A stretch of 47,704 bases of DNA from Ignavibacteriae bacterium HGW-Ignavibacteriae-3 (lineage in GTDB: Bacteria > Bacteroidota > Ignavibacteria > Ignavibacteriales > Melioribacteraceae), in NCBI GenBank assembly GCA_002839795.1, contig PGYS01000005.1, positions 1 through 47,704 on the forward strand, in the 5' to 3' direction. Shown piece after piece: positions 30,067 through 37,927 of the stretch. The notes beneath the pieces were generated by a model. The model worked only from the letters and a program-made list of their open reading frames with translations. It did no database searches and was not told the DNA's origin. The position numbers were made by a program, and so were the translations under genes. Each line of letters opens with the position of its first letter. Position 1 is the first letter of the stretch.

Positions 30067-30079
30067 CACTTGACAAGTG
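30067..30079. promoter_or_regulatory. 13-bp palindrome overlapping the met promoter
   Basis: CACTTG (30067-30072) and CAAGTG (30074-30079) form a perfect inverted repeat around one central A, spanning the TTG of the promoter at 30070. Its place is that of a repressor site; the binding protein is unknown. A stem of only 4 bp would form in RNA, so an RNA role is less likely. Confidence 0.4.
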
Positions 30080-30100
30080 AATATTTTTAGATTAGCTTTG
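30070..30100 (+). promoter_or_regulatory. Bacteroidota-type promoter of the met leader/operon
   Basis: TTG (30070-30072), then exactly 20 nt, then TAGCTTTG (30093-30100), a full match to TAnnTTTG. Transcription would begin near 30107, about 28 nt before leader ORF 1. The TTG is part of TTGACA, but a standard -10 box at 17 nt spacing (TAGCTT) is poor. Confidence 0.65.
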
Positions 30101-30134: not shown

Positions 30135-30221
30135 ATGAAACTCTTCACAACAAATAACATCCAGATGAAAGATATGCGCGCTATGATGATGTGCATGATG
30201 TTATTTACTCCGAAGGGCTGA
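30135..30221 (+). CDS. Methionine-rich leader peptide 1 (28 aa)
   Basis: A 28-codon ORF beginning ATG at 30135 and stopping with TGA at 30219-30221. Its product has 8 Met, with the run MRAMMMCMML; codons 17-19, 21 and 22 (30183-30200) are ATG. The ORF follows a strong promoter, has no good Shine-Dalgarno (A-rich AAAAAACACGAA), and its last codons form the first strand of an RNA switch (30211-30219). It should be a sensor of elongator Met-tRNA supply with no function as a peptide; methionine-biosynthesis genes follow. Its short length hides it from routine gene finding. Confidence 0.85.
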   Translation: MKLFTTNNIQMKDMRAMMMCMMLFTPKG

Positions 30222-30276
30222 ACTTCATAAAATAGACATTTGTCAAAAGCCCTTCGAAAAAACGAAGGGTTTTTTT
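30211..30276 (+). promoter_or_regulatory. Attenuator 1: antiterminator and intrinsic terminator
   Basis: Strand A CGAAGGGCT (30211-30219, inside the end and stop of leader 1) pairs perfectly over 9 bp with strand B AGCCCTTCG (30248-30256). B also pairs over 7 bp with strand C CGAAGGG (30263-30269) around an A6 loop, followed by T7 (30270-30276). A:B and B:C exclude one another. A ribosome halted at the Met run (30183-30200) would leave A free to form A:B and permit read-through; a ribosome reaching the stop codon covers A and lets B:C terminate. Confidence 0.85.
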
Positions 30277-30297: not shown

Positions 30298-30420
30298 ATG
30301 ACAGCAGATGTAAAAAATATTAATCTACGCGGCAATCAGCCGGCGAATATGCAATCCTTCTTTTCTATGATGATGGCTATGATGTATATGTCCGACCTCA
30401 TGCGTGACGGGATTACATAA
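30298..30420 (+). CDS. Methionine-rich leader peptide 2 (40 aa)
   Basis: A 40-codon ORF from ATG 30298 to TAA 30418-30420, with 9 Met and the run FSMMMAMMYM; Met codons 24-26, 28, 29 and 31 lie at 30367-30390, with another at 30400. The pattern MMM-x-MM repeats that of leader 1, and both lie just before a terminator with the same AGCCCTTC arm, so the two units look like a tandem duplication. A weak CGAG lies 8 nt before the ATG. It is the second methionine sensor before metY. Confidence 0.85.
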   Translation: MTADVKNINLRGNQPANMQSFFSMMMAMMYMSDLMRDGIT

Positions 30421-30473
30421 TCATATTTTTTTAGAAAGATTAAGGAGCCCTTCACAAAATGAAGGGCTTTTTT
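30404..30473 (+). promoter_or_regulatory. Attenuator 2: antiterminator and intrinsic terminator
   Basis: The terminator stem is AGCCCTTCA (30446-30454) with TGAAGGGCT (30460-30468), loop CAAAA, T run 30468-30473. Its left arm can instead pair with GTGACGGG (30404-30411) near the end of leader 2, using CCCTTCAC (30448-30455): 7 of 8 positions pair, with one C-U mismatch. The antiterminator is weaker than in attenuator 1, so this unit may act nearer to a default terminator. metY begins 34 nt after the T run with its own AAGGAG site. Confidence 0.75.
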
Positions 30474-30506
30474 ATTAATAGCCAATAAAACCAAAAGGAG
30501 ATTTAA

Positions 30507-33259
<2,753 letters not shown>

Positions 33260-33284: not shown

Positions 33285-34412
33285 ATGAACAATAATATAA
33301 TAACTGACAGCGCCGCTGTCCGGCAGATTAATTTTAATGAATTATTTTATCTGCAATCGGGTTCTGTTCTCCCGGAAGTAACGGTGGCCTATGAAACATA
33401 CGGCGAATTAAACAATGATGGTACAAACGCCATTTTGATTTGCCACGCACTTACCGGAGATGCACATGCTTCAAGTTATGATTATACAAGTGAGGAATTT
33501 GCCTCGGTTGCCAATTATACAAGGCAATCAGGCTGGTGGGACGGATTAATCGGTTTAGGGAAAGCATTTGATCCATCAGAAAATTTTATTGTCTGTTCTA
33601 ACATTCTCGGCGGATGTTACGGCACCACAGGCCCGGTCTCTATCAATCCCGAAACAGGTCGTAAATACGGCATCGATTTTCCAAATATTACCGTACGGGA
33701 CATGGTCAATCTTCAGCACAGACTTTTAGTATGGCTTGGAGTTAATAAATTGAAGGTTGTTTCCGGGGGATCACTCGGCGGCATGCAGGTTCTGGAATGG
33801 TCCTTAATGTTTCCCGAATTTGTAGAAAATATTATTCCTATAGCGGCCTCGGCGCAGCATTCCGCCTGGTGCATTGGCTTAAACGAAATAGCGCGCAAGG
33901 CAATTACGGATGATCCCGCATGGAATAACGGACACTATTCCGACCAGCCCGGAGATGGTTTATCTACGGCAAGAATGATTGCTATGATTTCATACCGGAG
34001 CGCCGAAAGTTTTAACAAAAAATTTGGAAGACGACTTTCTAATTCGGCAGATAAACTAAATTCGGTTTCAGGAAATCAGTTTCAGGTAGAGAGTTATCTC
34101 CGCTATCAGGGTGATAAACTTGTAAACCGTTTTGACGCTAACACTTATTTGTGCATCAGCCGAGCTATGGACTCTCATGATATTGCCAGCGGAAGAGGTA
34201 CGTTGAAAGAGTCTTTAAAAAATATCAAGGCAAAAGCGTTATGCATTGGAATTAATTCAGACATTCTTTACCCACCTTCGGAACAGATGCAGATAGCCTC
34301 ATTAATTCCGGGAGCGGAATATTATGAAATTAATTCGATGCACGGGCACGATGCATTTTTAATAGAATTTGATCAAATAAATAATGCCATTACAAAATTT
34401 TTAAAGGATTGA
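33285..34412 (+). CDS. metX: Homoserine O-acetyltransferase
   Basis: A 375-residue alpha/beta-hydrolase-fold enzyme making O-acetylhomoserine, the substrate of MetY. The nucleophile elbow is [10 protein letters not shown] with Ser163; [11 protein letters not shown] near 52-62 and the terminal GHDAFLIEF with the catalytic His near residue 355 are standard. The gene begins 25 nt after the aspartokinase stop. Acetyl versus succinyl specificity rests on family resemblance; MetY as the partner favours acetyl. Confidence 0.95.
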
Positions 34413-34591: not shown

Positions 34592-36493
34592 ATGAAAGAC
34601 TTTCTCTTCAAGCCATTTGAAGAAATGACCGAGAAGGATTATGAAACCCTCGGTTTCAAATCCGGACTCGAAATTCATCAGCAGCTTTTCACATCAAAAA
34701 AACTTTTTTGCCGATGTCCTTCCGGAAAATACAGCGAACGCTACGATGCCGAAATTCTGCGCCATATGCGTCCTACTCTTTCCGAATTGGGAGAGTATGA
34801 CGGAACGGCTCTGATGGAGTTCAAAACAAAAAAAGATATTCTTTACAGAATTAATAGAGAAAGTGTCTGTACTTATGAGATGGATGACACACCTCCCTTT
34901 TTAATCAACGATGATGCTCTTGATATCGCCCTGCAGTGCGGAATTTTATTCGATTGTTCTATTGTGGATGAATTACATATTGCGAGGAAACAATATCTGG
35001 ACGGCAGCATTCCCACCGGATTTCAACGGACAGCAATTTTCGCTCTCGACGGAAAAATTCCTTACAAGAACAGAAAAATAGATATCGTTCAAATGTCAAT
35101 AGAGGAGGATTCCTGCCGCGAAGTTTCGGATGCCGGACACCTGCGCGTTTACAGAACAGACAGACTTGGCATGCCGCTGATAGAAACAGTTACCGGCCCT
35201 GATATGCGCACTCCCTTTGAGGTTGCGGAGGTGGCGGAGATCTGCGCTAATGTTGCAAGGAGCACCGGAAAGGTGCGCCGAGGAATTGGTTCTGCGAGAG
35301 AAGATGTTAATGTGAGCGTTGACGGAGGAACGCGAATTGAAATTAAGGGCGTACCTAAAATCGGACGGATACCTCATCTCACTTATAACGAAGCCATGCG
35401 TCAATGGAATCTTCTGCGCCTAAGGGAAGAACTTCACAAAAGAGGAATTACCAAAGAGACTTTCGGTGCAAGCGTAAGCGATATAACGCGATTAGTTAAA
35501 AAAGCCCATTACCAGCCGATCCGGACAGCAATCGACCAGGGCCTGGGTGTTAAGTGCATCGTACTTCGAGGCTACTTAGGTTTACTTCACTGGCAAACAC
35601 AAACTGATACTTATTTTTCGAAAGAAATTTCGGACCGTGTGCGCGTAATTGCCTGTCTTACAAATATTCCCAATATTATTCATTCGGACAGCAAAGGCGA
35701 TACATTAACTTCGGCAGACTGGCAGAATATTAAACGCACCGTCAATGCTGCGGATGATGATACTATGGTACTTGTATGGGGTAATGAAATTGATTCTGAT
35801 ATGGCGGCAAAGGAAATTATAATCCGCGCTAAAGAAGCTACAATCGGCATTCCGTCAGAAACACGTCAGGCGTTGCGCGACGGGACAAACGGTTTCGAAA
35901 GAATATTACCCGGCGCAGACAGAATGTATCCCGATACAGATCTGCCCCCGACAAGAATAACAGAACAAAGGATTGAAAAGATCAGAATTGATCTGCCGGA
36001 CAAATACTGGAAAAGAGAAGAATGGTACCGGCGACTTAAAATTCCCGAGGATACTATCCGCCCGCTTGCCATCTCAAAATTTGCAAACCTGTTTAGGCAT
36101 CTCGTCAACGAATGGAAGATCAATCCGACTCTCGCCGCTGTTGTTTTGATTCAGTTTCCCAAGAGACTGAGAAAAAATAATATTGACATTGATCTTATAA
36201 GCGAAGAAATGATGAATGAAATTTTCAGATCTTATAAAGATGGATTGTTGTCACGCGATGGAATATTTCTTGCGATGAAAAAATCCGTTGAGAAGGGAAA
36301 ATTTTATCCGGAACTGCTGCCCAGACCGATATCATCCGTTGAACTTGAAGAAGTGATTTCCGAAACAAATAATGAAGTAAGCAAAAAAGAACTATTTTAT
36401 AACGAAAAGAGAAAAGAAGTTTTGCTTGGAAACGTTATGAATAAGGTCCGGATGAGAATAGCTGGAAAAATTGTAGCACAAAAAATTTATTAA
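34592..36493 (+). CDS. gatE: Glu-tRNA(Gln) amidotransferase subunit E (archaeal-type GatE)
   Basis: A 633-residue GatE, the kinase/transamidase subunit that activates and amidates glutamate on tRNA-Gln. The N-terminus DYETLGFKSGLEIHQQLF and KKLFCRCPSG, the segment VSIDGG-like VNVSVDGGTRIEIKG, and GFERILPGADRMYPDTDLPP are GatE hallmarks. It is about 150 residues longer than bacterial GatB because it includes the AspRS-like insertion (about 300-415) unique to GatE, and it has the C-terminal helical/YqeY-type tail. GatD is encoded next. GatDE is regarded as archaeal; a bacterial copy suggests transfer. Confidence 0.95.
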   Translation: MKDFLFKPFEEMTEKDYETLGFKSGLEIHQQLFTSKKLFCRCPSGKYSERYDAEILRHMRPTLSELGEYDGTALMEFKTKKDILYRINRESVCTYEMDDTPPFLINDDALDIALQCGILFDCSIVDELHIARKQYLDGSIPTGFQRTAIFALDGKIPYKNRKIDIVQMSIEEDSCREVSDAGHLRVYRTDRLGMPLIETVTGPDMRTPFEVAEVAEICANVARSTGKVRRGIGSAREDVNVSVDGGTRIEIKGVPKIGRIPHLTYNEAMRQWNLLRLREELHKRGITKETFGASVSDITRLVKKAHYQPIRTAIDQGLGVKCIVLRGYLGLLHWQTQTDTYFSKEISDRVRVIACLTNIPNIIHSDSKGDTLTSADWQNIKRTVNAADDDTMVLVWGNEIDSDMAAKEIIIRAKEATIGIPSETRQALRDGTNGFERILPGADRMYPDTDLPPTRITEQRIEKIRIDLPDKYWKREEWYRRLKIPEDTIRPLAISKFANLFRHLVNEWKINPTLAAVVLIQFPKRLRKNNIDIDLISEEMMNEIFRSYKDGLLSRDGIFLAMKKSVEKGKFYPELLPRPISSVELEEVISETNNEVSKKELFYNEKRKEVLLGNVMNKVRMRIAGKIVAQKIY

Positions 36494-36499
36494 TAATTG

Positions 36500-36533
36500 C
36501 AGAGACGCATGGCCATGCGTTTCTGTTTTTTTT
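36500..36533. repeat. 26-bp palindrome with T8 tail between gatE and gatD
   Basis: CAGAGACGCATGG (36500-36512) pairs with CCATGCGTTTCTG (36513-36525), 13 bp with one G-U pair and no spacer, and T8 follows (36526-36533). It starts 7 nt after the gatE stop and ends 11 nt before the gatD start. It has the form of a terminator yet splits two subunits of one enzyme, and looks like a mobile REP-type palindrome. It also creates a spurious 16-codon extension of gatD. Confidence 0.75.
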
Positions 36534-36544
36534 ACGGAATAGTT

Positions 36545-37927
36545 ATGACAGACAATTACAAAGGCTACAGAGGGAAAGCGCTTTCAACTTTAAAAAACTT
36601 TAAAGCGCTTGTCTGGAGCGATGTTGAGATAACTACAACAAAAGGGATCTACAATGGTATTATACTCCCCCGTTCTGAAACGGCGGATCCCTTTCACATC
36701 GTAATTAAAATGCCGATTGGCTATAACATTGGCGTTGCCGCTGGTCTTGTCACCGATATTAAAATCAAAGGAAGAAAAGAAGCACACTATAAAATTCCCG
36801 AAAAAGATTTTCCATATGAACCGAACAAGCCGAAAGTTAAACTGCTTGGAACAGGTGGTACTATTGCAAGCCGGCTTGATTACAGAACCGGTGCGGTAAT
36901 TCCGGCCTTCTCTCCAGGAGAACTTTACGGTTCAGTTCCCGAACTTGCCAACTATTGCAATCTTGAAACGGAAAAACTTTACGGTGTTTTCAGCGAGAAT
37001 ATGGGGCCGGATCAATGGAGGGGAACAGCGGAAGCAATTGGAAGAGAAATTGAAAAAGGCGTGGACGGAATCGTAATCGGACACGGAACCGATACTATGC
37101 ATCATACCGCTGCGGTACTCTCATTCATGGTGCAGAATTCACCCATTCCGATAGTAATGGTGGGATCTCAGAGATCGAGTGACCGCCCATCATCCGATGC
37201 TGCACTTAATTTAATGCACAGCGTTAAGACCGCTTCAGAAAGCGATATCGCCGAAGTTATGGTCTGTATGTTCGGACCGACCTCGGACTATTACGGATTG
37301 CTCCACAGAGGAACACGCGTAAGAAAAATGCATTCGAGCTACAGGTCAACATTCAGAACTATCGGAGATATTCCAATTGCAAAAGTAAGCCGTGATGAAA
37401 TCACTCCGCTCCGTCAGGATTACAAACGGCGCCGCAAAGACAGAAACGTAAAGATTAATACAGCATTTGAAGAAAAAGTAAGTATAGTTTACTACTACCC
37501 CAATATGAAACCCGATATTATTGAATCGCTCATTGATACCGATTATAAGGGAATTGTAATTGCAGGAACAGGTCTGGGACATGTGAACAAACCATTATAC
37601 CCGGCGCTCAAACGCGCGCATGAAAAAGGCATTTCAATCTACATGACAGTTCAGACTCTATGGGGTTATGTGCAAATGTATGTTTACGATACCGGACGCG
37701 ATATGATGGAGCTCGGCGTAATTCCGGGGGAAAACATGCTGCCGGAAGTGGCATACATGAAATTGTGCTGGGCATTGGGACAGACGACTGATCAGCAAAA
37801 AGTAAAAGAGATAATGCTTACATCTATCGCCGGTGAAATCACAGAACGGGAACCGAGCAATGGTTACCTTATATATCAGGGGGGCCTGCCGGAAGTTGAA
37901 GAGTTTATTTCGAAATATGTTAAATAG
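36545..37927 (+). CDS. gatD: Glu-tRNA(Gln) amidotransferase subunit D (archaeal-type GatD, asparaginase-like)
   Basis: A 460-residue GatD, which frees ammonia from glutamine for GatE. An N-terminal SH3-like AnsA-associated domain (to about 85, KGIYNGIILPRSE) precedes a two-domain L-asparaginase fold. The catalytic residues of GatD align: Thr106 (GTGGTIAS), Thr182 and Asp183 (GHGTDTMHHTA) and Lys261 (RVRKMHSS). The long N-terminal domain and the HGTDTM/FGPTSDYYG context separate it from AnsA or AnsB. I start at ATG 36545; the upstream frame to 36497 is palindrome sequence. It follows gatE by 51 nt. Confidence 0.95.
   Translation: MTDNYKGYRGKALSTLKNFKALVWSDVEITTTKGIYNGIILPRSETADPFHIVIKMPIGYNIGVAAGLVTDIKIKGRKEAHYKIPEKDFPYEPNKPKVKLLGTGGTIASRLDYRTGAVIPAFSPGELYGSVPELANYCNLETEKLYGVFSENMGPDQWRGTAEAIGREIEKGVDGIVIGHGTDTMHHTAAVLSFMVQNSPIPIVMVGSQRSSDRPSSDAALNLMHSVKTASESDIAEVMVCMFGPTSDYYGLLHRGTRVRKMHSSYRSTFRTIGDIPIAKVSRDEITPLRQDYKRRRKDRNVKINTAFEEKVSIVYYYPNMKPDIIESLIDTDYKGIVIAGTGLGHVNKPLYPALKRAHEKGISIYMTVQTLWGYVQMYVYDTGRDMMELGVIPGENMLPEVAYMKLCWALGQTTDQQKVKEIMLTSIAGEITEREPSNGYLIYQGGLPEVEEFISKYVK

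Follow-up and report, generated by a model that had tools for sequence, protein, structure and literature searches.

Two putative methionine-codon attenuators in series upstream of the metY–aspartokinase–metX operon in Ignavibacteria

Methionine synthesis is a standard example of control by a SAM riboswitch, a T-box or MetJ/MetR. In the window analyzed here, i.e., the whole 47,704-nt stretch of contig PGYS01000005.1 of Ignavibacteriae bacterium HGW-Ignavibacteriae-3, a methionine operon (metY, aspartate kinase and metX) was found with no SAM aptamer in the window according to Rfam, and no T-box match in the window at the gathering threshold. What, then, does this operon sense? An earlier note on the same DNA had placed a single attenuator 5' of metY, aspartokinase and metX. 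The sequence features of this attenuator are present, but they are only half of the arrangement: a second leader had been missed, as had the promoter and the fact that a SAM riboswitch is replaced here. We propose, with a probability of about 0.9, that two ribosome-mediated transcription attenuators stand in series before the operon and sense charged Met-tRNA, a proposal made without expression, ribosome-profiling or mutant data.

Anatomy of the region upstream of metY

The following features were observed in the window.

30070..30100, + strand: promoter of the Bacteroidota type (TTGACA at 30070-30075; N20 after TTG; TAGCTTTG at 30093-30100)
30135..30221, + strand: leader ORF 1, MKLFTTNNIQMKDMRAMMMCMMLFTPKG followed by the stop, by direct reading; kept as the upstream leader in relatives
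30183..30200, + strand: Met/Cys sensing run ATG ATG ATG TGC ATG ATG, codons 17-22; in-frame Met/Cys cluster conserved
30211..30219, + strand: strand A1, 5' strand of antiterminator 1, contained in the final codons of ORF 1 and its stop
30245..30256, + strand: strand B1, AAAAGCCCTTCG, common to antiterminator 1 and terminator 1
30263..30276, + strand: strand C1, CGAAGGG (30263-30269), and T7 (30270-30276), terminator 1
30298..30420, + strand: leader ORF 2, MTADVKNINLRGNQPANMQSFFSMMMAMMYMSDLMRDGIT followed by the stop; kept as the proximal leader in relatives, absent from the earlier note
30367..30390, + strand: Met run of leader 2, MMMAMMYM
30404..30411, + strand: strand A2, GTGACGGG, of antiterminator 2, with one mismatch to B2
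30444..30454, + strand: strand B2, GGAGCCCTTCA; the A2-pairing segment CCCTTCAC is 30448-30455
30460..30473, + strand: strand C2 and T-run, terminator 2
30507..31853, + strand: metY, O-acetylhomoserine sulfhydrylase (TIGR01326, 681 bits, cut-off 495; GGAG Shine-Dalgarno at 30497-30500)
31850..33259, + strand: aspartate kinase, overlapping the end of metY (TIGR00657, 336 bits, cut-off 209)
33285..34412, + strand: metX, homoserine O-acetyltransferase (PRK00175, 452 bits, cut-off 331)

For the first leader, the ORF with its six-codon run, strands A, B and C, the 9-bp duplex and T7 agreed to the base with the earlier note, as did the 10-nt gap separating the end of the last Met codon (30200) from strand A (30211). 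The run reads MMMCMM, i.e., five Met and one Cys. Strand A1 CGAAGGGCT (30211-30219) matches AGCCCTTCG of strand B (30248-30256) perfectly over 9 bp, and the A1:B1 duplex (E = -17.9) is stronger than those obtained with shuffled A (z = -6.5, p = 0.003). In folding simulations, the window RNA extending up to B adopted the A:B fold at -16.1 kcal/mol, and the full RNA with strand A masked adopted the terminator fold. The minimum free energy structure of full-length leader 1 is also the terminator, hence antitermination depends on A:B forming first. Upstream of the first leader, the motif TTG-N18-22-TAnnTTyG was present at 26 of 42 related loci, whereas shuffles gave 0.4; from this it is inferred that transcription probably starts about 25-30 nt 5' of the leader ATG. 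Leader starts were assumed to be ATG, and the lack of a clear Shine-Dalgarno sequence before the leader ORFs counts against reading them as attenuators.

The second leader carries a run without Cys and has its own A, B and C strands (30404-30473), terminator 2 extending from 30444 to 30473. Because ORF 2 and its terminator directly follow terminator 1, the operon lies behind two attenuators in series. The exclusion between antiterminator and terminator is weaker here: with its one mismatch, A2:B2 of the window alone is not significant (z = -1.7, p = 0.076). The A2 counterpart in three relatives (L013, L016 and L018) is GTGAAGGG, which pairs perfectly, and the second leaders of relatives gave p <= 0.02 for A:B. 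The products of the operon serve methionine, through homocysteine and O-acetylhomoserine. Right after this metY-lysC-metX operon, two genes (34592-36493 and 36497-37927) match GatE and GatD, the archaeal-type Glu-tRNA(Gln) amidotransferase subunits, above curated cut-offs, which is unexpected in a bacterium.

Since ATGATGATG is a simple repeat, the runs might be an (ATG)n microsatellite that fell by chance into a short frame. We give practically no weight to this explanation, which is refuted by conservation across genera. Indeed, the runs are broken by Cys, Ala, Ile and Trp codons, vary among genomes, and are absent in shuffles and on the reverse strand, where no Met-run ORF was found in 136 upstream regions. 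This is illustrated by the 17 metY upstream regions with leaders only, in which 28 ORFs have four or more Met in eight codons and 18 have five or more, against 0.03 and 0.00, respectively, in dinucleotide shuffles. Genome-wide claims are based on pattern and protein searches. In the 3.36-Mb genome to which the window belongs, ATGATGNNNATGATG occurs nine times, and two of these occurrences, within 325 bp before metY, are the two leaders. Of the other copies, five fall within coding frames that are longer or overlap, one belongs to a short frame that overlaps one of 50 codons, and a further one is the antisense of the His leader before hisG.

Leader attenuation is at home in this genome, as it also contains MLLAVHHIHHHLFLKPEDGVL (HHIHHH) before hisG (L250) and MKYTINTYNMQTVRNWWWSIYNNSISVT (WWW) before trpE (L251), each followed by a terminator; both are classical attenuators. 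The leuA gene lies inside an operon. No Met leader was found before metH of the same genome, so that the regulon may be limited to a single operon.

Conservation and covariation in related loci

The short Met-rich ORFs that the earlier note had proposed to look for 5' of metY in relatives are present. At 14 metY loci of the same family (Melioribacteraceae/Ignavibacteria), leaders were conserved, usually in tandem, with the Met/Cys run, the stop, the antiterminator and the terminator spacing kept and the rest diverged; leaders without a SAM riboswitch were also observed at three further loci of the order. Matched public records identify the organisms as Melioribacter, Stygiobacter electus, other Ignavibacteria and Candidatus Kapaibacterium; S. 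electus, which is in culture, has only one leader. Conservation of the Met codons, on which the earlier note had made its reading depend, holds as well: they are the conserved part, with 288 of the 303 ATGs of 54 leaders in the ORF frame and 11 and 4 in the other two. A further 60 metY loci, belonging to many phyla, were almost all leaderless, and strong matches occurred only in two Kapaibacteria-type genomes, which were later found to have the same system.

A script was used to locate the terminator and the strongest A:B duplex of every leader, mononucleotide shuffles of A serving as the null; such tests overstate independence when the sequences are related. An intrinsic terminator lies between the ORF and the first gene for 54 of 56 leaders, including both leaders of the window, and A:B was better than with shuffled A (p < 0.05) in 51 of 54, with a mean z of -3.8. 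Strand A begins at a median of 7 nt after the last Met/Cys codon (range 0-14 nt), its end falls between about -9 and +7 nt relative to the stop codon, and strand B mostly starts 20-30 nt past the stop (about 23 nt in the window). This placement fits a ribosome that covers A when at the stop and leaves it free when stalled on the run. The peptides recurrently end in -KG, -REG or -RDG before the stop because the RNA strand GAAGGG(C) is encoded there.

The covariation of the A:B and B:C stems that the earlier note had asked for was also found. In an alignment on strand B, 543 of 812 A:B cells were paired, where shuffles gave 466 on average (sd 7, max 494), and the changes include double ones, such as G-C to T-A at position 3, and at least four pair types at positions 7, 9 and 10. 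As the sequences are related, this covariation of the three strands A, B and C is to be taken as support and not as a probability. In Kapaibacteria-like families, the same layout is built from unrelated stems, with A/B being GTGAGAATG/CATTCTCAC and GTGGAGTGGTGTT/AACGCCATTCCTTC. These observations bear on the idea that the terminators are ordinary ones lying beside small functional Met/Cys-rich peptides, with no attenuation at all. Runs such as MCMCCMC could bind copper, and the terminators are strong. However, this idea leaves aside that A covaries with B across lineages, that A always lies 0-14 nt past the run, by the stop, and that the elements always precede metY, either replacing a SAM riboswitch or in series with one. 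A metal-binding peptide without attenuation is hardly tenable, and was rejected on the A/B covariation and the fixed placement of A.

The composition of the runs indicates that methionine is not the only amino acid to consider. Cys and Met make up 25% and 46% of the residues of upstream-leader runs, and 13.5% and 60% of those of proximal-leader runs; leaders of the f2 family read MAMCLCCMMMC, and TGT/TGC changes leave the Cys columns intact. Given this Cys share and the kept columns, Cys-tRNA is inferred to be sensed too in many leaders, perhaps weakly in leader 1 of the window. The earlier note had named Met-tRNA as the sensed molecule, which the comparison supports, but Met alone is too narrow with Cys codons in many runs. 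Going further, one could argue from these proportions that leader 1 reads mainly cysteine or the general sulfur supply through its Cys codons, methionine being secondary. We regard this as improbable, because the runs of the window contain five Met for one Cys in leader 1 and no Cys in leader 2, and the operon supplies methionine synthesis with homocysteine and O-acetylhomoserine.

Pairing of a strand-1 protector, an optional feature, was not seen for the two leaders of the window (z = -0.5 and +1.4), and z was below -2 in 19 of 54 leaders; a general rule that such leaders have no protector hairpin was thus not upheld, a protector occurring in about a third of relatives. At two loci of the f3 family (L112 and L115), a single Met leader (MWMCMIMM and MSMWMCMM, respectively) lies about 160-310 nt before metY, and a strand-1 protector seems to be present in the RNA as well, giving a four-strand trp-like layout; in L112, this protector would be formed by CAGCCGACG 5' of the ORF and CGTCGGCTG 3' of it. 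Besides, terminator 1 and leader 2 are separated at locus L012 by an insert, located about 100-300 nt 5' of leader 2, which contains an inverted-repeat element of the CTCGACTTCGCTCGAAATGAC type and is absent in the close relative L049.

Leaders and SAM riboswitches on the metY tree

Rfam and the leader scan were then used to class the metY loci of the order whose upstream DNA was visible, 67 in all. Leaders only were found at 17 loci, a Met/Cys leader together with a SAM-I riboswitch at 24, SAM-I only at 23 and SAM-I/IV only at three; no locus among the 67 had neither a leader nor a SAM riboswitch, and none had two leaders and a riboswitch. At the 24 composite loci (L094-L107, L113 and others), a Cys/Met leader of the MAMCLCCMMMC type is directly followed by the SAM-I riboswitch, and each has its own terminator as a rule. 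The second leader of the window occupies the slot of the SAM-I riboswitch in these relatives. A hidden sub-threshold SAM riboswitch was rejected, as none appeared at the 17 leader-only loci even at E <= 5, nor did any T-box at the same threshold. Besides, no RF00162 match was found anywhere in the genome of the window or in 11 congeners.

On the metY tree, the 14 leader-only loci of the family form one group (99/97), nested in a larger group whose other members are leader-plus-riboswitch loci, and two f3 loci stand beside another leader-plus-riboswitch locus. The leader-only state requires four changes on this tree, of which the well-supported branches force three; horizontal transfer of metY could alter these counts. 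Class-wide, leaders without a SAM riboswitch were found in the loci examined of f16, f17, f25, f28 and f30, one sampled f16 locus having SAM-I/IV and no leader, and in most other families the riboswitch is present. In all lineages with such leaders, metY is the regulated operon. The distribution fits a composite ancestor in which the riboswitch was later exchanged for a second leader, and the lineage of the window appears to have swapped SAM sensing for the sensing of tRNA charge, the direction of the exchange being inferred from the tree.

More broadly, we consider it fairly likely that undescribed, widespread sulfur-amino-acid leader attenuators control metY in Ignavibacteria and Kapaibacteria, that the ancestor combined Cys/Met-tRNA charging and SAM in series (leader, then SAM-I), and that at least two or three lineages either lost the riboswitch or acquired a second Met leader in its place.

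Two side observations concern the fate of these genes and sensors. In G065, a genome with a leader-only metY, a SAM riboswitch is kept before a cystathionine gamma-synthase/lyase-like gene (G065:C19:116052-116167, L124). It is the only SAM-I riboswitch of this genome, in which two sulfur genes thus have two different sensors. In addition, six congeners had no metY match at E <= 1e-100, two of them being incomplete (66 and 72%), and none had a metX match; the near-complete genomes G026-G029 of the same genus matched neither metY (E <= 1e-100) nor metX (E <= 1e-60). This suggests that the methionine route via metY/metX was lost in part of the genus.

Proposed mechanism and relation to known systems

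In attenuation of the trp/his type, strand 2 becomes available to the antiterminator when the ribosome stalls at codons of the scarce amino acid. By analogy, with ample charged Met-tRNA the ribosome would reach the stop and cover A, and B:C would end transcription. When Met-tRNA is scarce, the ribosome would halt on the run and leave A free, A:B would form before C is made, and the polymerase would read through. In Cys-containing runs, scarcity of Cys-tRNA would likewise stall the ribosome, and since both attenuators have to be passed, the range of control might be multiplied. Translation of the leaders, stalling, the response to starvation and this multiplicative logic are all inferences. The sequence features expected of an attenuator are present, namely an ORF with the codons of the amino acid, a terminator, an exclusive antiterminator, the placement of the strands and compensatory changes. 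Every protein starts with the very amino acid that is sensed, so such an attenuator must differ from the trp/his type when initiation fails, which fits the absence of an obligatory protector. Methionine shortage would also hamper initiation, and an untranslated leader without protector would read through, i.e., with the right sign. This logic is only a suggestion, none being seen in the leaders of the window and a third of relatives having one.

Ribosome stalling could also be caused by the nascent peptide, SAM or methionine arresting the ribosome through the peptide sequence and not through uncharged tRNA. Arrest-type leader peptides likewise precede mutually exclusive hairpins, and the proximal element of relatives does sense SAM. 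However, arrest peptides require a specific sequence, and the leaders keep only Met/Cys density with free flanking residues; arrest induced by a ligand would turn metY on when the ligand is in excess, whereas a biosynthetic operon calls for the opposite sign; and the His and Trp leaders of the same genome share the same build. Nascent-chain arrest is therefore very unlikely and was rejected on density and sign, leaving sensing of charged tRNA as the preferred reading.

Like trpL, hisL, leuL, ilvL, thrL and pheL, the metY leaders have a short ORF enriched in codons for the regulated amino acid, and as in trpL/hisL-type attenuators the antiterminator overlaps the ORF end, the intrinsic terminator is mutually exclusive with it and a biosynthetic operon lies downstream. 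Unlike that type, they use Met (and Cys) codons, stand in tandem, have no obligatory strand-1 protector and sense an initiating amino acid. The Rfam His, Trp, Thr, Leu and Phe leader families gave no match above curated cut-offs, with sub-threshold matches only for the Phe, Thr and His models. A 2013 survey lists only His, Trp, Thr and Leu leaders (PMC3766115). The statement of the earlier note that no Met-codon attenuator has been characterized stands for the open-access literature searched, in which none was found; the exception is a prediction, the metL leader CMCRRMC before metNIQ in Streptomyces lividans (PMC8079986). The latter is likewise a Met/Cys leader peptide 5' of a methionine gene, but it precedes a transporter and not biosynthesis, no clear terminator was found, and it belongs to another phylum.

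Cys leaders have been predicted before cysS in Rhodobacterales (uORFC-8-2; PMC8632094) and described for cys operons in a survey of Actinobacteria, where Rho was suspected and no RNA element was reported for methionine operons (PMC1262725). As in metY leaders, their Cys codons lie beside a (proposed) terminator, but they have two tandem Cys codons, no Met run, and another gene and phylum. The SAM-I riboswitch (RF00162) of relatives shares the slot, the operon and the possession of its own terminator, but its aptamer senses SAM and leader-only loci are devoid of any. In Xanthomonas campestris, a SAM-I riboswitch also senses uncharged initiator tRNA (PMC7270179), similarly joining SAM and Met-tRNA charging in methionine control; it does so by direct tRNA binding, at the level of translation and without leader peptide, unlike the composite metY loci, where a separate leader attenuator precedes the riboswitch. 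Hence, the mechanism is a known one, the metY leaders working like ribosome-mediated attenuators whose testable defining features are met. What is new, in the absence of expression data, is methionine as the amino acid with full comparative support, the tandem build, the serial composite with a SAM riboswitch and the exchange of sensor type.

Taken as a whole, a well-supported leader attenuator reads the charging of Met (and Cys) tRNA, in tandem, instead of the standard methionine controls. It is very probable that the leaders inform the cell of methionine scarcity through the sites where the ribosome is inferred to stall. Besides, the tree places leader-only loci beside leader-plus-riboswitch and riboswitch-only relatives, which provides a natural series on the exchange of RNA sensors. 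This series allows one to ask what a cell gains from measuring tRNA charging as compared with SAM, and how an attenuator operates if the amino acid it senses also initiates translation.
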